In this document: piece after piece, positions 5,144-58,060 of the stretch | Layout: the number at the start of each line of letters is the position of its first letter | How positions within the stretch are numbered: the first letter of the stretch is position 1 | Made by a program: the position numbers and the translations under genes | Notes under the pieces: model-generated | Told to the model about the DNA's origin: nothing | What the model saw: the letters and a program-made list of their open reading frames with translations, nothing else | Database searches by the model: none | NCBI GenBank assembly: GCA_028712895.1 | Contig: JAQTPL010000008.1 | Location: forward strand, 1-58,369 | DNA from: a bacterium | Lineage (GTDB): Bacteria; CAYTYR01; UBA6262 | Direction: 5' to 3' | Length of the DNA: 58,369 nt

Positions 5144-5943
5144 CTTTTATATTGCTTAAAATGGATAAGGTGCTGATCGCTTTCAGTGGAGGAGTGGACA
5201 GCACCTTTCTTGTTTATCTGGCCAATCAAATCTTGCCAGGTAAAGTGCTAGCCGTAACTGCAGTGTCTGAGACTTATCCGGTCAAAGAATTGAAAGAAGC
5301 CAAAGTTTTAGCTAAAAAAATAGGGATCAGGCACCTGGTCATAAAGACCCGTGAACTGAAAAATAAGAAATTCAAGGCTAATACAACTGAGCGCTGCTAC
5401 TACTGTAAGAAGGAATTATTTAGTACACTAAAAAAGATAGCGGCTAAACATAAAATTGAGCATGTAGTTGACGCTGCCAATATTGATGACTTGAAAGATT
5501 ATAGGCCAGGCTCCAGGGCTAGCCGGGAATTAGGGATTAGGCACCCTTTACAAGAAGCCGGTTTGACAAAAAAAGATATCCGGCAAATGTCCCGTAGAGC
5601 TAGCCTGCCGACTTGGAATAAACCAGCTTTAGCCTGCTTAGCATCACGAATACCCTATGGGTACGAAATTAAAGGAAAAAACCTGGCCAGGATAGACCAA
5701 GCCGAAGAGTTTTTGCGGACGCTTAAATTACGGCAGGTCAGGGTACGGGATTACGGGAGGATGGCCCGGATCGAAGTGGAACCCGCAGGCTTACCAGAGA
5801 TCTTGAAAAACCGCAAAAAAGTAATCCGGTATTTTAAACAACTAGGATATCTTTATATTACCCTGGATTTGGCAGGATACAGAATGGGGAGTTTGAATGA
5901 AGAGCTAAAGAAAGTCCGCGGGTCACGAGTCCACGAGTCTTGA
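5110..5943 (+). CDS. larE: ATP-dependent sacrificial sulfur transferase LarE
   Basis: AFSGGVDSTFL; TERCYYCKKELFSTL; DAANIDDLKDYRPGSRASRELGIRHPL. Likely start at MSPGKDKQ; C-terminus runs into a repeat (VRGSRVHES). Confidence 0.88.
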   Translation: MSPGKDKQKKLTFILLKMDKVLIAFSGGVDSTFLVYLANQILPGKVLAVTAVSETYPVKELKEAKVLAKKIGIRHLVIKTRELKNKKFKANTTERCYYCKKELFSTLKKIAAKHKIEHVVDAANIDDLKDYRPGSRASRELGIRHPLQEAGLTKKDIRQMSRRASLPTWNKPALACLASRIPYGYEIKGKNLARIDQAEEFLRTLKLRQVRVRDYGRMARIEVEPAGLPEILKNRKKVIRYFKQLGYLYITLDLAGYRMGSLNEELKKVRGSRVHES

Positions 5944-5994
5944 TAATTATTAAATATAAAAACCAGACTCGCGACTCGGAGACTCGAGACTGTT
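5916..5994. repeat. Inverted-arm heptamer/octamer element, unit GTCNCGA
   Basis: Left GTCCGCGG-GTCACGA-GTCCACGA-GTCTTGA. Right-arm reverse complement GTCTCGA-GTCTCCGA-GTCGCGA-GTCT. AT-rich core between. Confidence 0.8.
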
Positions 5995-6078: not shown

Positions 6079-7332
6079 GTGGCTAAAAAAATGATCAATG
6101 TCTGGCTGATGCAAGAGCATGAGTACTTATTCAAAAACACTGTTATTCCTGAATTCCAGCAGCAGCATCCGGATATTGATATTATTTTAACCACGACCAG
6201 CTGGCATTTCCTATGGGATAAAGTGGTGATGTTTTCCAAGCGGAAACAAGGCCCGGATGTCCTGCAAATAGGCAGCACATGGAATGGGGTGCTGGCTGAA
6301 ATCGGCGCCTTGAAAGATATTACCGAGAACCTAGTCTCTATCGGTGGGTTGGATATATTCATCAATGAAGCAGCTAAGACCTGTGTTTTTCCCGGTACTG
6401 GGCGGGTTGCTTCTGTCCCCTGGTACTTAGATGCCAGGGCTTTATTTTACCGGCAGGAGATATTGGATATTCAGGGCTTTACCGCGCATGACCTGGGGAC
6501 CTTTGAGGGCTTGGAAAAAGTAAGCGCTGCGGTACATAACTTCAAAGCCGGCGATAAGACTATAGCCGCCTTTGGTCTCTCCGGCCAGAAAGACGCGCAA
6601 CTGATCCATTCCCTGTCTCCCTGGATCTGGAATAATGGGGGAGATTTTATGACCCCGGACGGCAAAAAAGTCAGTTTTAATTCTCCTGCAGCTTTAACCG
6701 GATTGGATGCTTATTTCAGGTTTATTAATACCTATTGTGATAAAGCTTCGATCATGCAGGGGTATGAAACTTTCTTGGAGAATTTTTTCCGTAAAGGGAA
6801 TAGTTGCCTGGCCTATACCGGGCCCTGGGTCAACAATACCTATCTTAATCCCCAGCATGAGTTTTATAACCGGTTTAGCCAGCATATCGAAGCTACTTTA
6901 ATGCCCGGAGGACCGGGCGGACGGTTTACTTTTTTAGGGGGCAGCAACCTGGCTATTTCAGAATTTTCCAGGCGTCCGGACGAAGCCTGGGAACTGATCA
7001 AATTCCTGACCCAGTTACCGGTACAGGAAAGGTTCTGCGCCACCAATCATCAATTACCAAGTTTAACCGCATCTTATAAGAACAAAGGCGGTATCGATAA
7101 CACCCCGCAAAAAATATTCAGGAATGCGGTCCAACATGGCCGGACTTTCCCTAATAATGCTAACTGGGCGCAGATCGAGGATATCCTCATCGAATATATT
7201 CATCGTCTCCTGTTCAGCATTGCAGAAGGTATTTATACGGCAGAATTAATGCAGGAAAGCATTCAGGAAGCAGCTGTTAAAAGTAACGCGCTATTAGCCC
7301 AGGAAGAACAATGGCGCAGGGAGAAAAATTGA
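6079..7332 (+). CDS. Family 1 extracellular solute-binding-like protein without signal peptide
   Basis: SBP-like pattern (VWLMQEHEYLFKNTVIPEFQQQHPDIDI, GPDVLQIGSTW, GGSNLAIS, WELIKFLTQ). GTG start with an in-frame TGA just upstream; N-terminus MAKKMINVWL is not a signal peptide. Confidence 0.75.
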   Translation: MAKKMINVWLMQEHEYLFKNTVIPEFQQQHPDIDIILTTTSWHFLWDKVVMFSKRKQGPDVLQIGSTWNGVLAEIGALKDITENLVSIGGLDIFINEAAKTCVFPGTGRVASVPWYLDARALFYRQEILDIQGFTAHDLGTFEGLEKVSAAVHNFKAGDKTIAAFGLSGQKDAQLIHSLSPWIWNNGGDFMTPDGKKVSFNSPAALTGLDAYFRFINTYCDKASIMQGYETFLENFFRKGNSCLAYTGPWVNNTYLNPQHEFYNRFSQHIEATLMPGGPGGRFTFLGGSNLAISEFSRRPDEAWELIKFLTQLPVQERFCATNHQLPSLTASYKNKGGIDNTPQKIFRNAVQHGRTFPNNANWAQIEDILIEYIHRLLFSIAEGIYTAELMQESIQEAAVKSNALLAQEEQWRREKN

Positions 7333-8576
7333 CAAGAGCAGTGATCAATGTCTGGTTAACACATGAACATGAGCAACTGGTCCGGCATGCTATTATGCCG
7401 GATTTTAAGAAAAAATTTCCAGACATTGATGTGGTATTGACAACAACAGGATGGCGTTTCTTATGGGAAAAAGTTGCGATGTTCTCCAAAAAGAAACAAG
7501 GGCCGGATGTACTGCAATTCGGCAGTACCTGGAACGGCGCTCTGGCTCAGTTAGGAGCTTTACGCGATCTGACTAGTCAGGTCAACCAGTTGGGCGGCCT
7601 GAATAGCTTTATTCCGGCCAGCAGCAGGCTCTCTACTTTTCCCGGCAGTAATAATATCTCCTCAGTTCCGTGGTATGTAGATGTGCGCGCCTTGTATTTC
7701 CGCAAAGATGTATTGGGTGAACACTCAATCGCCGCTCGCGACCTCGACACCATGGATGATTTGATCCAGACCTGCGAAAAAGTACATCATACCAAAATAG
7801 ACAACAAGGAAGTTGCGGCTTTTGGCGTATTTGGCAATAAAGATTCCCAAATTGTGCATAATATTGCTCCCTGGATTTGGAATTACGGCGGCACTTTCCT
7901 GCGTGCAGACGGGAAGGAAGCTGCTTTTTATGAACCAGCGGCTTTAAAAGGCTTGGAAATCTATTTTGACCTGGTCAATATCTATAGCAAACCAGATTCG
8001 CTGGGCCAGAATTATGATGTCTTTACCGACGCCTACGCCGTTAAAGGAGATTATACCTTTGCTTGTTTAGGGCCTTGGCTGAATAATACATATCTTAATC
8101 CAAAATCCCCAACCTATAATAAAATAAGTGCCAGTATCCATCCCTTGATCATGCCGGCTGGGCCGGCCGGGCGTTTCACCTTTATGGGTGGCAGTAACCT
8201 GGCCATTTCTTCCTTTTCTCATCATCCTGAAGAAGCCTGGTCTTTTATTGAGTTTCTCCTGCAACGTAAAGTACAGGAACAATTCTGCGCTGCTAATAAC
8301 CAGCTGCCCAGCTTATTGGACTGCTATACTCCTGCTTATCTCATGGATACGACTCGCAACAAGGTTTTTAAGGAATCGGTACGTTACGGCCGCGGTTTTC
8401 CCAACAGTCCTTATTGGGCGCCGATAGAAGATATTTTAATAGATTACGTCTATGATATGTTTATTACGATCAGGTCCCAGGGTTATTCCAAGCAGGTGTT
8501 AAAAGAGAAAACTTTCGAGGCAGCAGTGAAATGCAATCTAATCCTTAAAGGGGATCCTTTTATATTAAGAAGATAA
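7311..8576 (+). CDS. Family 1 extracellular solute-binding-like protein, tandem paralog
   Basis: Co-linear similarity with the preceding ORF over the full length; N-terminus MAQGEKLTRAVINVWL lacks a signal peptide. Confidence 0.75.
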   Translation: MAQGEKLTRAVINVWLTHEHEQLVRHAIMPDFKKKFPDIDVVLTTTGWRFLWEKVAMFSKKKQGPDVLQFGSTWNGALAQLGALRDLTSQVNQLGGLNSFIPASSRLSTFPGSNNISSVPWYVDVRALYFRKDVLGEHSIAARDLDTMDDLIQTCEKVHHTKIDNKEVAAFGVFGNKDSQIVHNIAPWIWNYGGTFLRADGKEAAFYEPAALKGLEIYFDLVNIYSKPDSLGQNYDVFTDAYAVKGDYTFACLGPWLNNTYLNPKSPTYNKISASIHPLIMPAGPAGRFTFMGGSNLAISSFSHHPEEAWSFIEFLLQRKVQEQFCAANNQLPSLLDCYTPAYLMDTTRNKVFKESVRYGRGFPNSPYWAPIEDILIDYVYDMFITIRSQGYSKQVLKEKTFEAAVKCNLILKGDPFILRR

Positions 8577-8583
8577 CAAAGCC

Positions 8584-8693
8584 GTTACTGGTCGCTAGTC
8601 GCTGGTAGCTAGTTAAAAAAAAGAAACAAGCTCTGATCCGGAGCCTGTTTCCTTGTTTTTTACTAGCGACTAGTTACTAGAAACTAGCGACTG
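8584..8693. repeat. Inverted-arm heptamer element, unit GTNNCTA, around a hairpin terminator
   Basis: Left: GTTACTG GTCGCTA GTCGCTG GTAGCTA. Right-arm reverse complement: GTCGCTA GTTTCTA GTAACTA GTCGCTA. Confidence 0.9.
8613..8662. terminator. Bidirectional rho-independent terminator between convergent genes
   Basis: AAACAaGCTC-TGATCCG-GAGCcTGTTT stem with A-tract before and T-tract after. Confidence 0.75.
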
Positions 8694-8695
8694 TT

Positions 8696-9799
8696 TTACT
8701 GTATTTCCGCAGTTATACTGCTATTGGTGACGGCAGTCACTTTTACCTTAATTCCTTCAACCTTAGTTTCCAGCTTTTGGGCAATGGCCGGCAGATTTTT
8801 TATCTCTGCTCCTATCTTAATATCCGCTATCCCCTGGCTAAAGCTTTCGGTTTGAGCAGATCTTACTTCGATCATATTCCGCAGTCCTTTAATGACCGCA
8901 TCTAATTGATTCAAAGAAGCAACATTCTGTACGCTAACCGCAATAAAATTAAATAATTTCAAACGTTGGTCCAATACTCTGGTCAGGTCCTCAGCAGCGA
9001 TCTCCGCTGCCCGTTTCAAGGCTTCCCGGCTCGCTGCTTTCCGGGTACTGCTTACGCCTCCGCTGGAAAATGAGTTGCTGTAGATTAAATCCGCCTGCCC
9101 GGTCTTCACCACCTTAAAACTTATGGTTGCCCGGTAAGAGACCAAGCCTCCTGGTACCTGGTCAGTATTAAAGGACGACATGGAATTACCGGTTATCATT
9201 ACATCGGCCTTAGCAGCGATTTCATCAAGCTCTACGATTTTATACTGTAGGGCTAAAAGCTTGTTACTCAAGACTAATGCGCTGATCCTTTCAGGTTCCG
9301 GTACCCCGTCAATATGGTCCATGATCACTACCCCGATGCGCAAGTTGGAAGTCGTGGGCATTGGCGGAGCCGTCAGCCCTAAGAGATTGAGGTCCTTGTT
9401 AACCGCTTCAATTTTAACCAAAGCCTCTATTTTAGTTTTGTAAAGATCACCTTCCCGACCGGAGCTGAGGATCTTGTATTTTTTAATATATCCGTTTGTT
9501 TTGGAGAGAATTTGCTGGTCTACCATGAGTGCTTTTTCCACCCGGGTGGCAGCATTGACATAAACACCAACAGTCATTTCCACGGCATTACGCTGGGCTT
9601 CACCCAGGGCCCGTTTTTTGGCATCCAGCAAGTCATTGTCAAAAATTGCCGCCAAGCCTTCCGCTTGTACCACTTCAGTGACTTCTTTTTCTCTCTTATT
9701 CTTATTGGCAGAGTTGATATTGGGCCGGCCAGTAGCGCAAGCGCTGAAGAGCAGGCTGCCTAATAGTATTGCGCACAAAAATTTTTTCAAAATAATCAC
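8696..9799 (-). CDS. LPP20 / FlgT-N-like lipoprotein
   Basis: Lipobox LLFSACATG; VQAEGLAAIFDNDLLDAKKRALGEAQRNAVEMTVGVYV segment. Confidence 0.65.
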   Translation of the reverse strand: MIILKKFLCAILLGSLLFSACATGRPNINSANKNKREKEVTEVVQAEGLAAIFDNDLLDAKKRALGEAQRNAVEMTVGVYVNAATRVEKALMVDQQILSKTNGYIKKYKILSSGREGDLYKTKIEALVKIEAVNKDLNLLGLTAPPMPTTSNLRIGVVIMDHIDGVPEPERISALVLSNKLLALQYKIVELDEIAAKADVMITGNSMSSFNTDQVPGGLVSYRATISFKVVKTGQADLIYSNSFSSGGVSSTRKAASREALKRAAEIAAEDLTRVLDQRLKLFNFIAVSVQNVASLNQLDAVIKGLRNMIEVRSAQTESFSQGIADIKIGAEIKNLPAIAQKLETKVEGIKVKVTAVTNSSITAEIQ

Positions 9800-34798: not shown

Positions 34799-35212
34799 AT
34801 GGCTATCTGCAGAAGAGTAGTATTAAGATTTCCTAAAAATCTGGTAGAGAAACCTTTCGTTTATCATTTAGTAAAAGATTATAATTTGCAATTTAATATT
34901 CTTAAGGCCCAGGTAACTCCGTCTGAAGAAGGGATCATGTCCCTGGAGCTGAAAGGGCAGAAAGATAATTATAACAAAGGGATAGAATTCCTGACCAAAG
35001 CCGGTGTGACCATTGAGCAGCTGGGCCAGAATATCAGCAAAAATGACAAACTTTGCACCCAATGCGGATTATGTATTTCGGTTTGCCCGACACCAGCCTT
35101 GGTCCTGGACCAGAAAACCCGTCAGGTCAGCTTTAACAGCAACCATTGTATAGCCTGCGAAATGTGCGTAAAGGTCTGTCCGGTCAAAGCTATGGAAGTA
35201 AAATTTGATTAA
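34799..35212 (+). CDS. NIL domain plus 4Fe-4S ferredoxin protein
   Basis: N-terminal NIL-like segment; CTQCGLCISVCPTPAL and CIACEMCVKVCPVKAM. Confidence 0.88.
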   Translation: MAICRRVVLRFPKNLVEKPFVYHLVKDYNLQFNILKAQVTPSEEGIMSLELKGQKDNYNKGIEFLTKAGVTIEQLGQNISKNDKLCTQCGLCISVCPTPALVLDQKTRQVSFNSNHCIACEMCVKVCPVKAMEVKFD

Positions 35213-35325
35213 ATACGATTACACGCTTGCCTGCCGGCAGGGATTAAAAAGAAGATTACCCAGATAAAGCAACAGTTCGTAATCGGTGTAATCGTTTTTA
35301 AAAATCTGTGTAATCAGTTCTGAGC
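35208..35325. repeat. Inverted 9-nt-period element, unit GATTACNCN / GTAATCNGT
   Basis: Left GATTAAATACGATTACACG and AGATTACCC; right GTAATCGGT GTAATCGTT ... GTGTAATCAG. Confidence 0.7.
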
Positions 35326-35341
35326 AAAGCGAGGAAAAATT

Positions 35342-36259
35342 ATGGATAAGCCGGAAATCGCTAAAAATGTACTGGGCCTGATCGGGAACACTCCCCTTGT
35401 CCAGCTGCAAAAACTTCCCGGGCCAGATGATGCCAAAGTGCTGGTTAAGGTTGAGTATTTCAATCCCGGTGGCAGCATTAAGGACCGGATCTGCCTGGCT
35501 ATGATCAATGACGCAGAAAAAAGGGGTTTAATAAAACCAGGCGGGACTATTGTCGAACCGACTAGCGGGAATACCGGTGTGGGCCTGGCAATGGTAGCAG
35601 CGGTGAAAGGTTACCATCTGATCCTGACCATGCCGGAAACAATGAGCGTGGAAAGGCGCAAACTGCTGGCTTTTTACGGGGCAGAAGTTGTCCTGACCCC
35701 GGGTGACGAGGGGATGAAAGGATCGATCAGAAAAGCTATGGAATTGAAAGAAAAGAATGATTATTTCATGCCACAACAATTCAATAATCCGGCTAATCCG
35801 GAAATACACAGGCAGACCACTGCCCGGGAGATCATCCGGGCCACGGATGGTAAATTGGATGCCTTTATAGCTGGGGTCGGGACCGGCGGGACTCTTACCG
35901 GCGTGGGAGAAGTCTTAAAAAAAGATGTTTCTGCTTCCATAAAAATAGTGGCAGTAGAACCAGAGAACAGTGCGGTCCTGAGTGGGAAAGAACCGGGGCC
36001 TCATCATATACAAGGGATAGGCGCGGGATTTATTCCCATGGTTATGAATGCTAAGATCGTGGATGAGATAATTACTGTATCTGATGAAGATGCTTTTACA
36101 GTAACCAGAAGATTAGCTGAAGAAGAAGGGTTATTGGCAGGTATATCTGCCGGTGCTAATGTTTTTGCCGCTTTAAAAGTAGCCAAAGACTTGGGTAAAG
36201 GAAAAACAGTAGTGACTATTTTGCCTGATACTGGAGAACGATATTTGAGCGTCTTGTAA
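35342..36259 (+). CDS. cysK: Cysteine synthase A (O-acetylserine sulfhydrylase)
   Basis: [54 protein letters not shown]. Confidence 0.92.
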
Positions 36260-38240: not shown

Positions 38241-39176
38241 GTGAATCAAATGAGCAGAATTTATGAAGATATAACCAAGACTGTAGGCCGCACTCCACTG
38301 GTAAAATTAAATCAAATGGCAAGGAACAGCACAGCTAATATACTGGTAAAACTGGAATCTTTTAATCCTCTATCCAGCGTCAAAGATCGCATTGGCGTAG
38401 CCATGATCGAGGCCGCAGAAAAAGCCGGGGTATTGGACCATACTAAAGTCATTATTGAACCGACTAGCGGTAATACTGGTATTGCTTTGGCTTTTGTAGC
38501 CGCCGCTAAAGGATACAAGCTTATCCTGACCATGCCTGAAACTATGAGCCTGGAACGGCGGCAACTGCTGAAGATATTCGGGGCAGAACTGGTACTGACC
38601 GAAGGGGCCAAAGGTATGCGCGGCGCTGTAGAAAAAGCAGAGGAGCTGGCAAAAAGCACGCTAAATAGTTTTGTGCCTCAGCAGTTCAATAATACGGCTA
38701 ATCCGGAAATTCACCGGAAAACCACGGCCGAGGAAATCTGGGATGATACTGATGGTAAAGTTGATTACTTTATTGCCGGTATTGGCACAGGCGGTACGAT
38801 CACTGGCGTAGGAGAAGTACTGAAAAAAAGGAAGCCGCAGGTAAAAGTAATCGCGGTAGAGCCTAAAGATTCCCCGATATTAAGCGGCGGTAAACCAGGC
38901 CCGCATAAGATCCAGGGAATCGGCGCCGGCTTTGTACCCAATATCCTGAACACCAAGATCTATGACGAAGTAATACAGGTGACCAATGAAGATGCCGGTA
39001 AAATTGTCCGTCAGTTGGCTAGGGAAGAGGGCATATTGGCCGGCATTTCCAGCGGCGCAGCACTGTGGGTGGCTTTACAAATTGCCCAGCGGCCGGAAGC
39101 AGTCGGCAAAACCATTGTAGTGATCTTGCCGGATACCGGGGAGCGATATCTCTCAACGTGGTTGTTCAGTGAATAA
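38241..39176 (+). CDS. cysK: Cysteine synthase A paralog
   Basis: [54 protein letters not shown]. Confidence 0.92.
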
Positions 39177-39186
39177 GTACATGATT

Positions 39187-39358
39187 CGGTAACGGTGTAC
39201 TTAGTATACTCGGTGTACGGTGAACGGATACGAAGCCCGAAGAAACACAAGGTCTTTTCGGGCCTCGAAACCGCAACCGAATGACGAGATTCTCAATCGG
39301 GCATCGTAACCGTAACCGAAAACCGAGGTTCCAAATCGGGCATCGACACCAAATACCG
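39187..39358. repeat. Complex inverted repeat element, unit CGGTNA(N)
   Basis: Left CGGTAA CGGTGTA .. CGGTGTA CGGTGAA CGGATA; core GCCCGAA..TTCGGGC; right ACCGCAACCGAATGACG .. ATCGTAACCGTAACCGAAAACCG. AATCGGGCATCG occurs twice directly. Confidence 0.75.
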
Positions 39359-39377
39359 TAGGACGAGATCTAAGGAG

Positions 39378-40559
39378 TTGTTAATGAGTAAGGGAAAAAG
39401 TGCCGTAAAAGTAGATAAAAAATATTTTAATTTGGCTGAGTCACCCAACGAACTATCATTGGAGTCTGGGGAGAAGCTTGGTCCGATTAAAGTGGCTTAT
39501 GAAACCTATGGCACGCTTAACGAGGATAAGAGCAACGCTGTATTGGTAGAGCATGCCTTTTCCGGCGACGCCCACGCGGCAGGATATCATGAGGGAGACG
39601 ATAAACCCGGTTGGTGGGATGACCTGATCGGTCCCGGCAAAGCTCTCGATACTAATAAGTATTTTATTATTTGCTCCAATATTATAGGTGGTTGCAAAGG
39701 CAGTACCGGTCCCTCTTCTATCGATCCTAAAACCGGTAAGCCTTATGCTTTGGATTTTCCGATAATTACGGTTGGAGATATTGTGAAAGTGCAAAAGCAC
39801 TTGATCGATCATCTGGGCATTAAGAAGTTGTTAAGCGTCATCGGCGGTTCAATGGGCGGGATGCAGGTTTTGCAGTGGGTAGCTTCTTACCCTGAGAATG
39901 TTCTTTCGGCTATCCCGATAGCCACGACTTTAAAACACTCTCCCCAGCAGATCGCTTTTGATGAGGTTGGCCGTCAGGCAGTAATGGCTGATCCAGCGTG
40001 GCTAAACGGCAATTATTATGATTTTGGACAACCGGAGCGGGGATTGGCTATAGCCCGGATGATCGGGCATATTACCTATATGAGTGACCGCTCCATGGAA
40101 GAAAAATTTTCCCGTAAGCTGAAAGAAAAGAGCAAGAATCTTAAATTTACCTCTGATTTCGAGGTAGAAGGTTATTTGAAATATCGCGGTGATGCTTTTG
40201 TTAAGCGGTTCGATGCTAATTCTTATCTCTATATAACCAAAGCAATGGACTATTTTGATCTTTCTGGAGATAAATTAATTCCTAAAAAGAAGAAACCCAA
40301 GATCAGATTTTTAGTGATCGCTTTCAAATCCGATTGGCTCTATCCTGCCTACCAATCACAGGAAATAGTCAAACTGTTGAAAGCGCGCAATATTAGGACC
40401 ACCTATTGCGAGATAGATTCGACCTACGGCCATGACGCTTTCCTGGTCGAGATCGAGAAGGAATCACACCTGATCAAACATTTCTTGCGCAGCGTGTCCG
40501 GCTCGCTGGCAAACGGCGAGGCAGGGGAAAATGGGGAGACGGATGAATATTCAATCTAA
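39378..40559 (+). CDS. metX: Homoserine O-acetyltransferase
   Basis: [55 protein letters not shown]. Confidence 0.93.
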
Positions 40560-54658: not shown

Positions 54659-54724
54659 CTCGTTTAACGGTTAGGGTAACGAAGCCCGAATCGGGCCTCG
54701 AAACCGTACACCGTGTAACGAGTT
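54659..54724. repeat. Inverted repeat element, CGGTNA(N)/AGCCCGA family
   Basis: CTCGTTTAACGGTTAGGGTAACGA-AGCCCGAATCGGGCCT-CGAAACCGTACACCGTGTAACGAG; same core as 39.2 kb. Confidence 0.75.
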
Positions 54725-54743
54725 TCCAAAGGTGGTGATTATC

Positions 54744-56282: not shown

Positions 56283-56306
56283 ATTCTGCCTCCTTTAATA
56301 AAAAAG

Positions 56307-56344
56307 ATTACACAGATTACAAATAACGATTACGCTGATTCAAG
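56307..56344. repeat. 9-nt-period array GATTACACA/GATTACAAATAAC/GATTACGCT/GATTCAAGT
   Basis: Same unit as the 35.2-kb element, single orientation. Confidence 0.65.
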
Positions 56345-56420
56345 TAAATATATTGAATTGCTGTGAACATAATATATCAGAATTCAGGCTTGCTGTAAAT
56401 AGGTAAATTGACAAAAGTTG

Positions 56421-57109: not shown

Positions 57110-57203
57110 ATAGTTCATAGTTCATAGCTGGTAGCTCGTAGGAAAAAACAATTATTGTTTTATTGTTCTCACTATCAGCTATGAGCTACGAGCTTCGAGC
57201 TGT
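57110..57203. repeat. Inverted-arm heptamer element, unit RTAGYTC
   Basis: Left ATAGTTC ATAGTTC ATAGCTG GTAGCTC GTAGGAA. Right-arm reverse complement ACAGCTC GAAGCTC GTAGCTC ATAGCTG ATAGT. Confidence 0.9.
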
Positions 57204-57207
57204 ATTA

Positions 57208-57975: not shown

Positions 57976-58060
57976 TTAGCTCATAGCTCTTAGTTCATAG
58001 CTCATAGGAAACGGTTTGAAACAATTACTAACGGCTATGAGCTACGAGCCACGAGCTATT
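57976..58060. repeat. Inverted-arm heptamer element, unit RTAGCTC (second copy)
   Basis: Left TTAGCTC ATAGCTC TTAGTTC ATAGCTC ATAGGAA. Right-arm reverse complement ATAGCTC GTGGCTC GTAGCTC ATAGCC. Confidence 0.9.

Follow-up and report, generated by a model that had tools for sequence, protein, structure and literature searches.

Inverted heptamer arms in a bacterial gene spacer: a probable gene-less member of a PF05635 (S23)-associated class of mobile-type elements

The window analyzed here is a stretch of 58,369 nucleotides (contig JAQTPL010000008.1, assembly GCA_028712895.1), and the element of interest lies in a 119-nt spacer flanked by two convergent protein genes. The upstream gene, for an extracellular solute-binding protein (SBP_bac), occupies 7311–8576 on the forward strand, and the left arm begins 7 nt past its stop codon; the convergent gene, at 8696–9799 on the reverse strand, matches FlgT_N only weakly, under the curated cut-off, and has its stop 4 nt past the right arm. 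The left arm (8584–8611, forward strand) consists of the heptamers GTTACTG, GTCGCTA, GTCGCTG and GTAGCTA, then GT. The right arm (8664–8691, reverse strand) reads in reverse complement as GTCGCTA, GTTTCTA, GTAACTA and GTCGCTA. Between them is a G+C-rich hairpin (8623–8651) with a T-run to 8661, as in an intrinsic terminator. The initial annotation had described just this layout, with four GTNNCTR heptamers in each of two inverted arms around a hairpin; its start at 8584 stands, and its end at 8693 was 2 nt too far. The two-unit pattern GTNNCTRGTNNCTR occurs six times in the window where 0.15 are expected, a number reached in none of 100 shuffles. An Rfam search of the window gave no family reaching its gathering score. 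A plain terminator reading was rejected, as the arms are outside the hairpin and arms elsewhere often have no terminator between them; that the element is not an ordinary terminator, REP or CRISPR had been rightly recognized.

Comparable arrays with other words had been claimed for at least seven more spacers of the window, and this holds for at least three gene-less elements. Two have the word TAGCTCR: one at 57110–57204, whose right arm is nearly identical to that of a PF05635-bearing copy (C61:48976-49296, locus L247), and one at 57977–58058, with inverted arms. The third, at 5913–5991, has inverted arms of the word GACTCG. Longer-period spacer repeats of a different type, with a 39-nt period and the words CGAAACCG / CGGTGTACGG, are found at 39170–39400 and 54663–54740. 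The words GATTACACAGATT / GTGTAATC, present at 35205–35350 and 56306–56347, replace heptamer arrays in some orthologous spacers.

Across the 1.93-Mb source genome a three-unit GTNNCTR pattern has 63 matches and a reversed control pattern has none. Two congeners gave 24 and 43 matches, the pattern recurred weakly in one family member (5), and it was rare in the remaining genomes searched. We surveyed periodicity in 1.25 Mb of the source genome; the comparisons drew on a further 0.62 Mb from two sister genomes. The 1.25 Mb contained 111 noncoding period-7 islands (5 of these are N-masked contigs) against 8 in total in shuffled sequence, and other periods gave 5–17 islands each, save the harmonic 14 (41). 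About ten words could be told apart by eye (GTNNCTR, TAGCTCR, GCGTATA, TTTTGAG, GTTCGTA, GGCGGAT, GACTCGC, CTAAATT, CAGCGGT and ATGCTGA), and the view that the element is one of a class spread genome-wide in many words is borne out. Inverted pairs are common among the genome's period-7 arrays. In its canonical form the GTNNCTR element is [GTNNCTR]x4-GTTTAAA...TTTTTAC-[YAGNNAC]x4-TG, with a loop of 8 to 387 nt from arm to arm, and terminal inverted repeats are common to many copies, as in DNA transposons and MITEs. One four-heptamer GTNNCTR arm (L279:589-616, and L215 at C60:79280-79307) apparently lies within a conserved ORF in both species; the ORF resembles valyl-tRNA synthetase.

The GTNNCTR pair with the 387-nt loop (C72:14007-14449, L245) encloses a 118-aa ORF of PF05635 (23S_rRNA_IVP), a family whose solved relative is 2GSC. 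A conserved protein co-occurring with the arrays was what the initial annotation had proposed to look for, and PF05635 is such a protein. In the source genome four of five PF05635 genes stand between inverted arms, each with one private word (GTNNCTR at L245, TAGCTCR at L247, GCTGGAA at L246, GTTCGTA at L249). The window copy has no S23/IVP ORF between its arms.

To score arms at such genes, the 170 bp preceding each PF05635 match was aligned to the reverse complement of the 170 bp following it, counting scores of at least 14. A collection-wide four-unit scan, with chance matches mixed in, served as a source of loci and not of counts. In a first set, 47 of 59 PF05635 loci passed (median score 20), a figure that leaves out six partial or far-diverged matches and becomes 47/65 with them; as controls, none of 69 further ORFs from these loci passed, and 3.6% of 4008 pairs formed across genomes did. 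A second set came from genomes reached via named loci (Terriglobus, Geomonas, Marichromatium, Marinobacterium, Aestuariicella, Aliifodinibius, Chryseobacterium, Aliterella, Omnitrophota and others), and here inverted arms were found at 22 of 27 PF05635 loci and 2 of 29 neighbouring ORFs. Taken together the two sets, which span many phyla, have arms at 69/86 PF05635 genes versus 2/98 neighbouring ORFs (Fisher p=1.6e-31), leaving 17 of the 86 PF05635 loci with no detectable arms. The heptamer word at armed loci is locus-specific. Arms at S23 loci match themselves at 0.575 for lag 7 and 0.533 for lag 14, with 0.24–0.34 at other lags, and the best period is 7 in 37 of 47 armed loci and 8 in 6. PF05635 is also present in 14 of 15 genomes with four-unit GTNNCTR matches versus 18 of 40 from a relatives search (p=0.002), a comparison that is supporting only because the 15 were hand-picked for their arrays.

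The cargo seen between arms was PF05635 only, once accompanied by a HepT/MntA pair, and no known transposase. In that composite (L241:2611-3798 on C60, also L249) GTTCGTA arms surround a broken PF05635 gene and the HepT/MntA toxin-antitoxin pair, so the composite may have captured other genes; genome G001 has a related arrangement (L269/L285). Another arrangement of the PF05635 family is found in genome G012 (L263, L275), with 19 partial matches, mostly in close opposed pairs (e.g. C7:104028-104554), at which no heptamer arms were detected.

Gene-bearing and gene-less copies can have the same word. This is the case for GTAGCGN in genomes G041 and G042, with 8 and 13 matches in several places and none for the control. 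Terriglobus albidus has 38 arm matches, all with the unit order GTTGCTR GTTGCTR GTTCCTR GTTGCTA (control 0), and two of its PF05635 genes carry these same arms. In the source genome no PF05635 copy was found with its commonest words, GCGTATA and TTTTGAG. What gene-less copies hold between their arms is for the most part unrelated to the interior of the S23-bearing copy. Word similarity tracks S23 protein similarity mainly above ~70% identity (Mantel r=0.24, p=0.0005); the tracking fails below this level, and words therefore change faster than the protein. A slow lock between protein and word was rejected, since words are common mainly to S23 proteins more than ~70% identical.

Sister genome G002 has two PF05635 elements in unrelated places (L250/L267) that share 85% identity across the whole element, from one arm's outer edge to the other's; the likeness stops there and the flanks are unrelated. 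Arm-bounded likeness of this kind is also seen at Terriglobus L367/L389. Thus it is the S23-bearing siblings, and not the window copy, that are observed as repeat-bounded copies with unrelated flanks. We compared 270 spacers that are orthologous (mean identity 84%). An array is present on at least one side of the comparison in 76: 17 with the same word, 11 with different words and 48 with an array in one species, subject to at least one misassigned 'same' call (L341) and to some 'one only' spacers whose counterpart has a weaker array. Arrays therefore turn over fast between these related genomes, as had been predicted. Some sites are clearly empty (L284:810 vs L233). No target-site duplication was certain at the compared sites, and one is possible (5 bp, TAAGT, at L284:810). 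Divergent spacers number 0/76 among the array-bearing and 11/194 among the arrayless (p=0.04). Locus L283 of G001 has extra inner arms and looks like an element nested in another; L244 of G000 has single arms. One run of neighbouring genes (L282 vs L216, G001:C55 vs C61) has many spacers with differing words between species.

At the window site the corresponding spacer of sister genome G001 contains a similar hairpin (AAACAGG.TC...CTGTTT), no GTNNCTR arms and, on one side, a different heptamer word. The two hairpins align with a score of 14, against at most 13 in shuffles. The window terminator is likely orthologous to that of G001, a judgment from sequence that stops short of certainty because hairpins of this kind look alike. 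A terminator without these arms at this site in the sister species is not explained by the mere insertion of a ready-made unit; either the arms are replaceable around a retained interior, or insertion occurs so near terminators that both orders occur.

As RNA the window element folds at −52.3 kcal/mol (z=−6.67). Its terminal inverted repeats can form a stem, in blocks of 5–6 bp with internal loops at the N,N positions. These positions do not covary between left and right arms: of 75 units aligned, 14 agree there, fewer than the 25.7% that shuffling gives on average, and for these positions a hairpin kept by compensatory change was rejected on this count. Comparison of species shows 4/156 changes in the frame bases (G,T,C,T) and 21/117 at N,N,R (p=2e-5). 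The word frame in each arm is therefore constrained or very young, and exact pairing is not kept. A constrained frame with free N,N positions fits heptamers recognized singly, by S23 or by something else.

We conclude that the window element probably belongs, as a member without the gene, to a class of mobile-type elements associated with S23; it cannot be classed as a MITE of a known transposase. The family would consist of small dispersed selfish elements whose full form is an arm, a PF05635 (S23/IVP four-helix-bundle) gene and an inverted arm, each arm having about four tandem heptamers of a word private to the subfamily, and the window copy would be gene-less and non-autonomous. S23, a pentameric four-helix bundle related to Avd, may recognize the arms as DNA or as a transcript hairpin, and such recognition would enable copying in trans. 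By analogy with 23S rRNA intervening sequences (IVSs), the arms of the transcript may fold into a long bulged stem that is cut by RNase III, and we propose that insertion near gene ends would therefore be tolerable. The cutting and joining of DNA are assumed to be host activities. Movement by S23 and excision of an RNA stem are both inferred. No reverse transcriptase was seen in the source genome, and where its Y1 transposases carry repeats, these are unrelated to the arms. No RVT_1 match was found in the genome (94% complete), for which reason a reverse-transcribed element was rejected. Two PF01797 (Y1 transposase) genes are present, neither with heptamer arms. One of them (L332, C13:5313-5639) is flanked by its own, different long inverted repeat, ATATCTTGACATCTTGACAACGTCCC, and is a separate mobile element. 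No recombinase or reverse transcriptase tied to the arms was found in the source genome. Weighing against the account are this absence, the want of a certain target-site duplication, the commonest words with no PF05635 copy, the unrelated interiors, the sister-species terminator without these arms, the 17 PF05635 loci at which no arms were detected and the failure of words to follow S23 relatedness below ~70% identity.

A wider reading, which we hold tentatively and at slightly under even chances, has PF05635 proteins define a phylum-crossing class of mobile element for which no transposase or reverse transcriptase of its own is known, whose ends are about four tandem heptamers of a word that changes fast and is private to the subfamily. 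The period-7 arrays scattered through the spacers of many bacteria would then be gene-less copies, and the 23S rRNA IVS would be the case that landed in rRNA. In the IVS of Coxiella burnetii the S23 ORF is preceded by GACAGAT heptamers in strain-dependent number, and a 28-bp terminal stem is present; RNase III removes the IVS, which has been called a selfish element (PMC4990558). Like the S23 class, this IVS has a PF05635 gene, terminal inverted repeats and tandem heptamers adjoining the ORF, and the 28 bp of the Coxiella stem is the length of four heptamers. Known 23S IVSs, however, are inside 23S rRNA genes, whereas S23-class copies are dispersed between protein genes, many of them gene-less, with the word varying by subfamily. 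The window copy cannot be filed as a 23S IVS because it is outside rRNA and without an ORF. The source genome bin has no 23S gene that could hold an IVS of its own.

Other known systems are alike in part. Beggiatoaceae TAACTGA repeats are also intergenic tandem heptamers in many copies, but almost all are direct, of one word and mostly just upstream of start codons (PMC4679880). Avd of diversity-generating retroelements is structurally related to PF05635 (2GSC) (PMC10053308); the source genome differs in that no reverse transcriptase was found. The account of Geobacter metallireducens describes several classes of paired tandem 7–8-nt repeats on opposite strands at variable distance, noted as putative (global-)regulator sites, some at a fixed distance from insertion sequences (PMC2700814). 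As described there, they resemble the source genome in having paired opposite-strand short tandem repeats of several word classes, and differ in their words; no PF05635 link was noted there, and the likeness is one of layout alone. In the published literature, preprints being outside the search, no paper came up that connects dispersed heptamer arms with PF05635.

Four other explanations were weighed. If the heptamer were the site of a host DNA- or RNA-binding protein, with S23 genes merely traveling along, then the conserved G,T,C,T frame (4/156 vs 21/117) and the lack of covariation between arms would both be expected, and the Geobacter classes 1–3, for which such sites were proposed, look alike (PMC2700814). 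We think such a host regulatory array unlikely, as it fits poorly with about ten unrelated words in a single genome, word changes at orthologous sites, the absence of divergent promoter spacers among the 76 with arrays, and PF05635 inside such arms in distant phyla. That avoidance of divergent spacers, the strong fold and the position between convergent genes around a terminator would suit an RNA device of benefit to the host, an extended transcript hairpin for 3′-end stabilization or RNase III processing. This is also rather improbable: the variable positions pair no more than chance (14/75 against 25.7%), arrays are lost and gained fast, and loops span 8 to 387 nt.

Growth by foldback, in which polymerase slippage and template switching would act at terminator hairpins without any mobile element, draws on the terminator enclosed by the window arms, which is probably orthologous in the sister species. 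We regard it as very unlikely, given that arm-to-arm match is no better than chance, many arm pairs enclose an S23 gene, and L250/L267 are precise copies with unrelated flanks. Slippage plus inversion, an origin offered in the initial annotation, is likewise unsupported because the units within an arm differ and are not mutual copies, neither arm tracks the other, and the 38 Terriglobus arms all keep one unit order. Least credible of all, at a very slim chance, is a REPIN-type identity with a Y1 (RAYT-like) transposase as the mover. Like REPINs, the arms are dispersed inverted pairs in gene spacers with a variable spacer, and two PF01797 genes are on hand, but REPIN/RAYT systems differ in that neither Y1 gene here has heptamer arms and one has its own inverted repeat. 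REPINs are not known to have tandem heptamers.

An S23-associated mobile-type class would tie a puzzling DNA pattern of many bacteria to PF05635, a widespread family without an assigned function. The link gives a testable identity to PF05635 and to the 23S IVS, whose origin has been in question since its first description (PMC4990558 cites 1990), and may explain repeats that other annotations list as putative regulatory sites. S23 elements may also reveal movement of DNA without a recognized recombinase. The cultured strain Terriglobus albidus DSM 26559 holds both gene-bearing and gene-less copies, so the proposal can be tested at the bench. At two T. albidus loci (L399, L367) hairpins directly adjoin the outer end of the right arm, which suggests insertion beside terminators.
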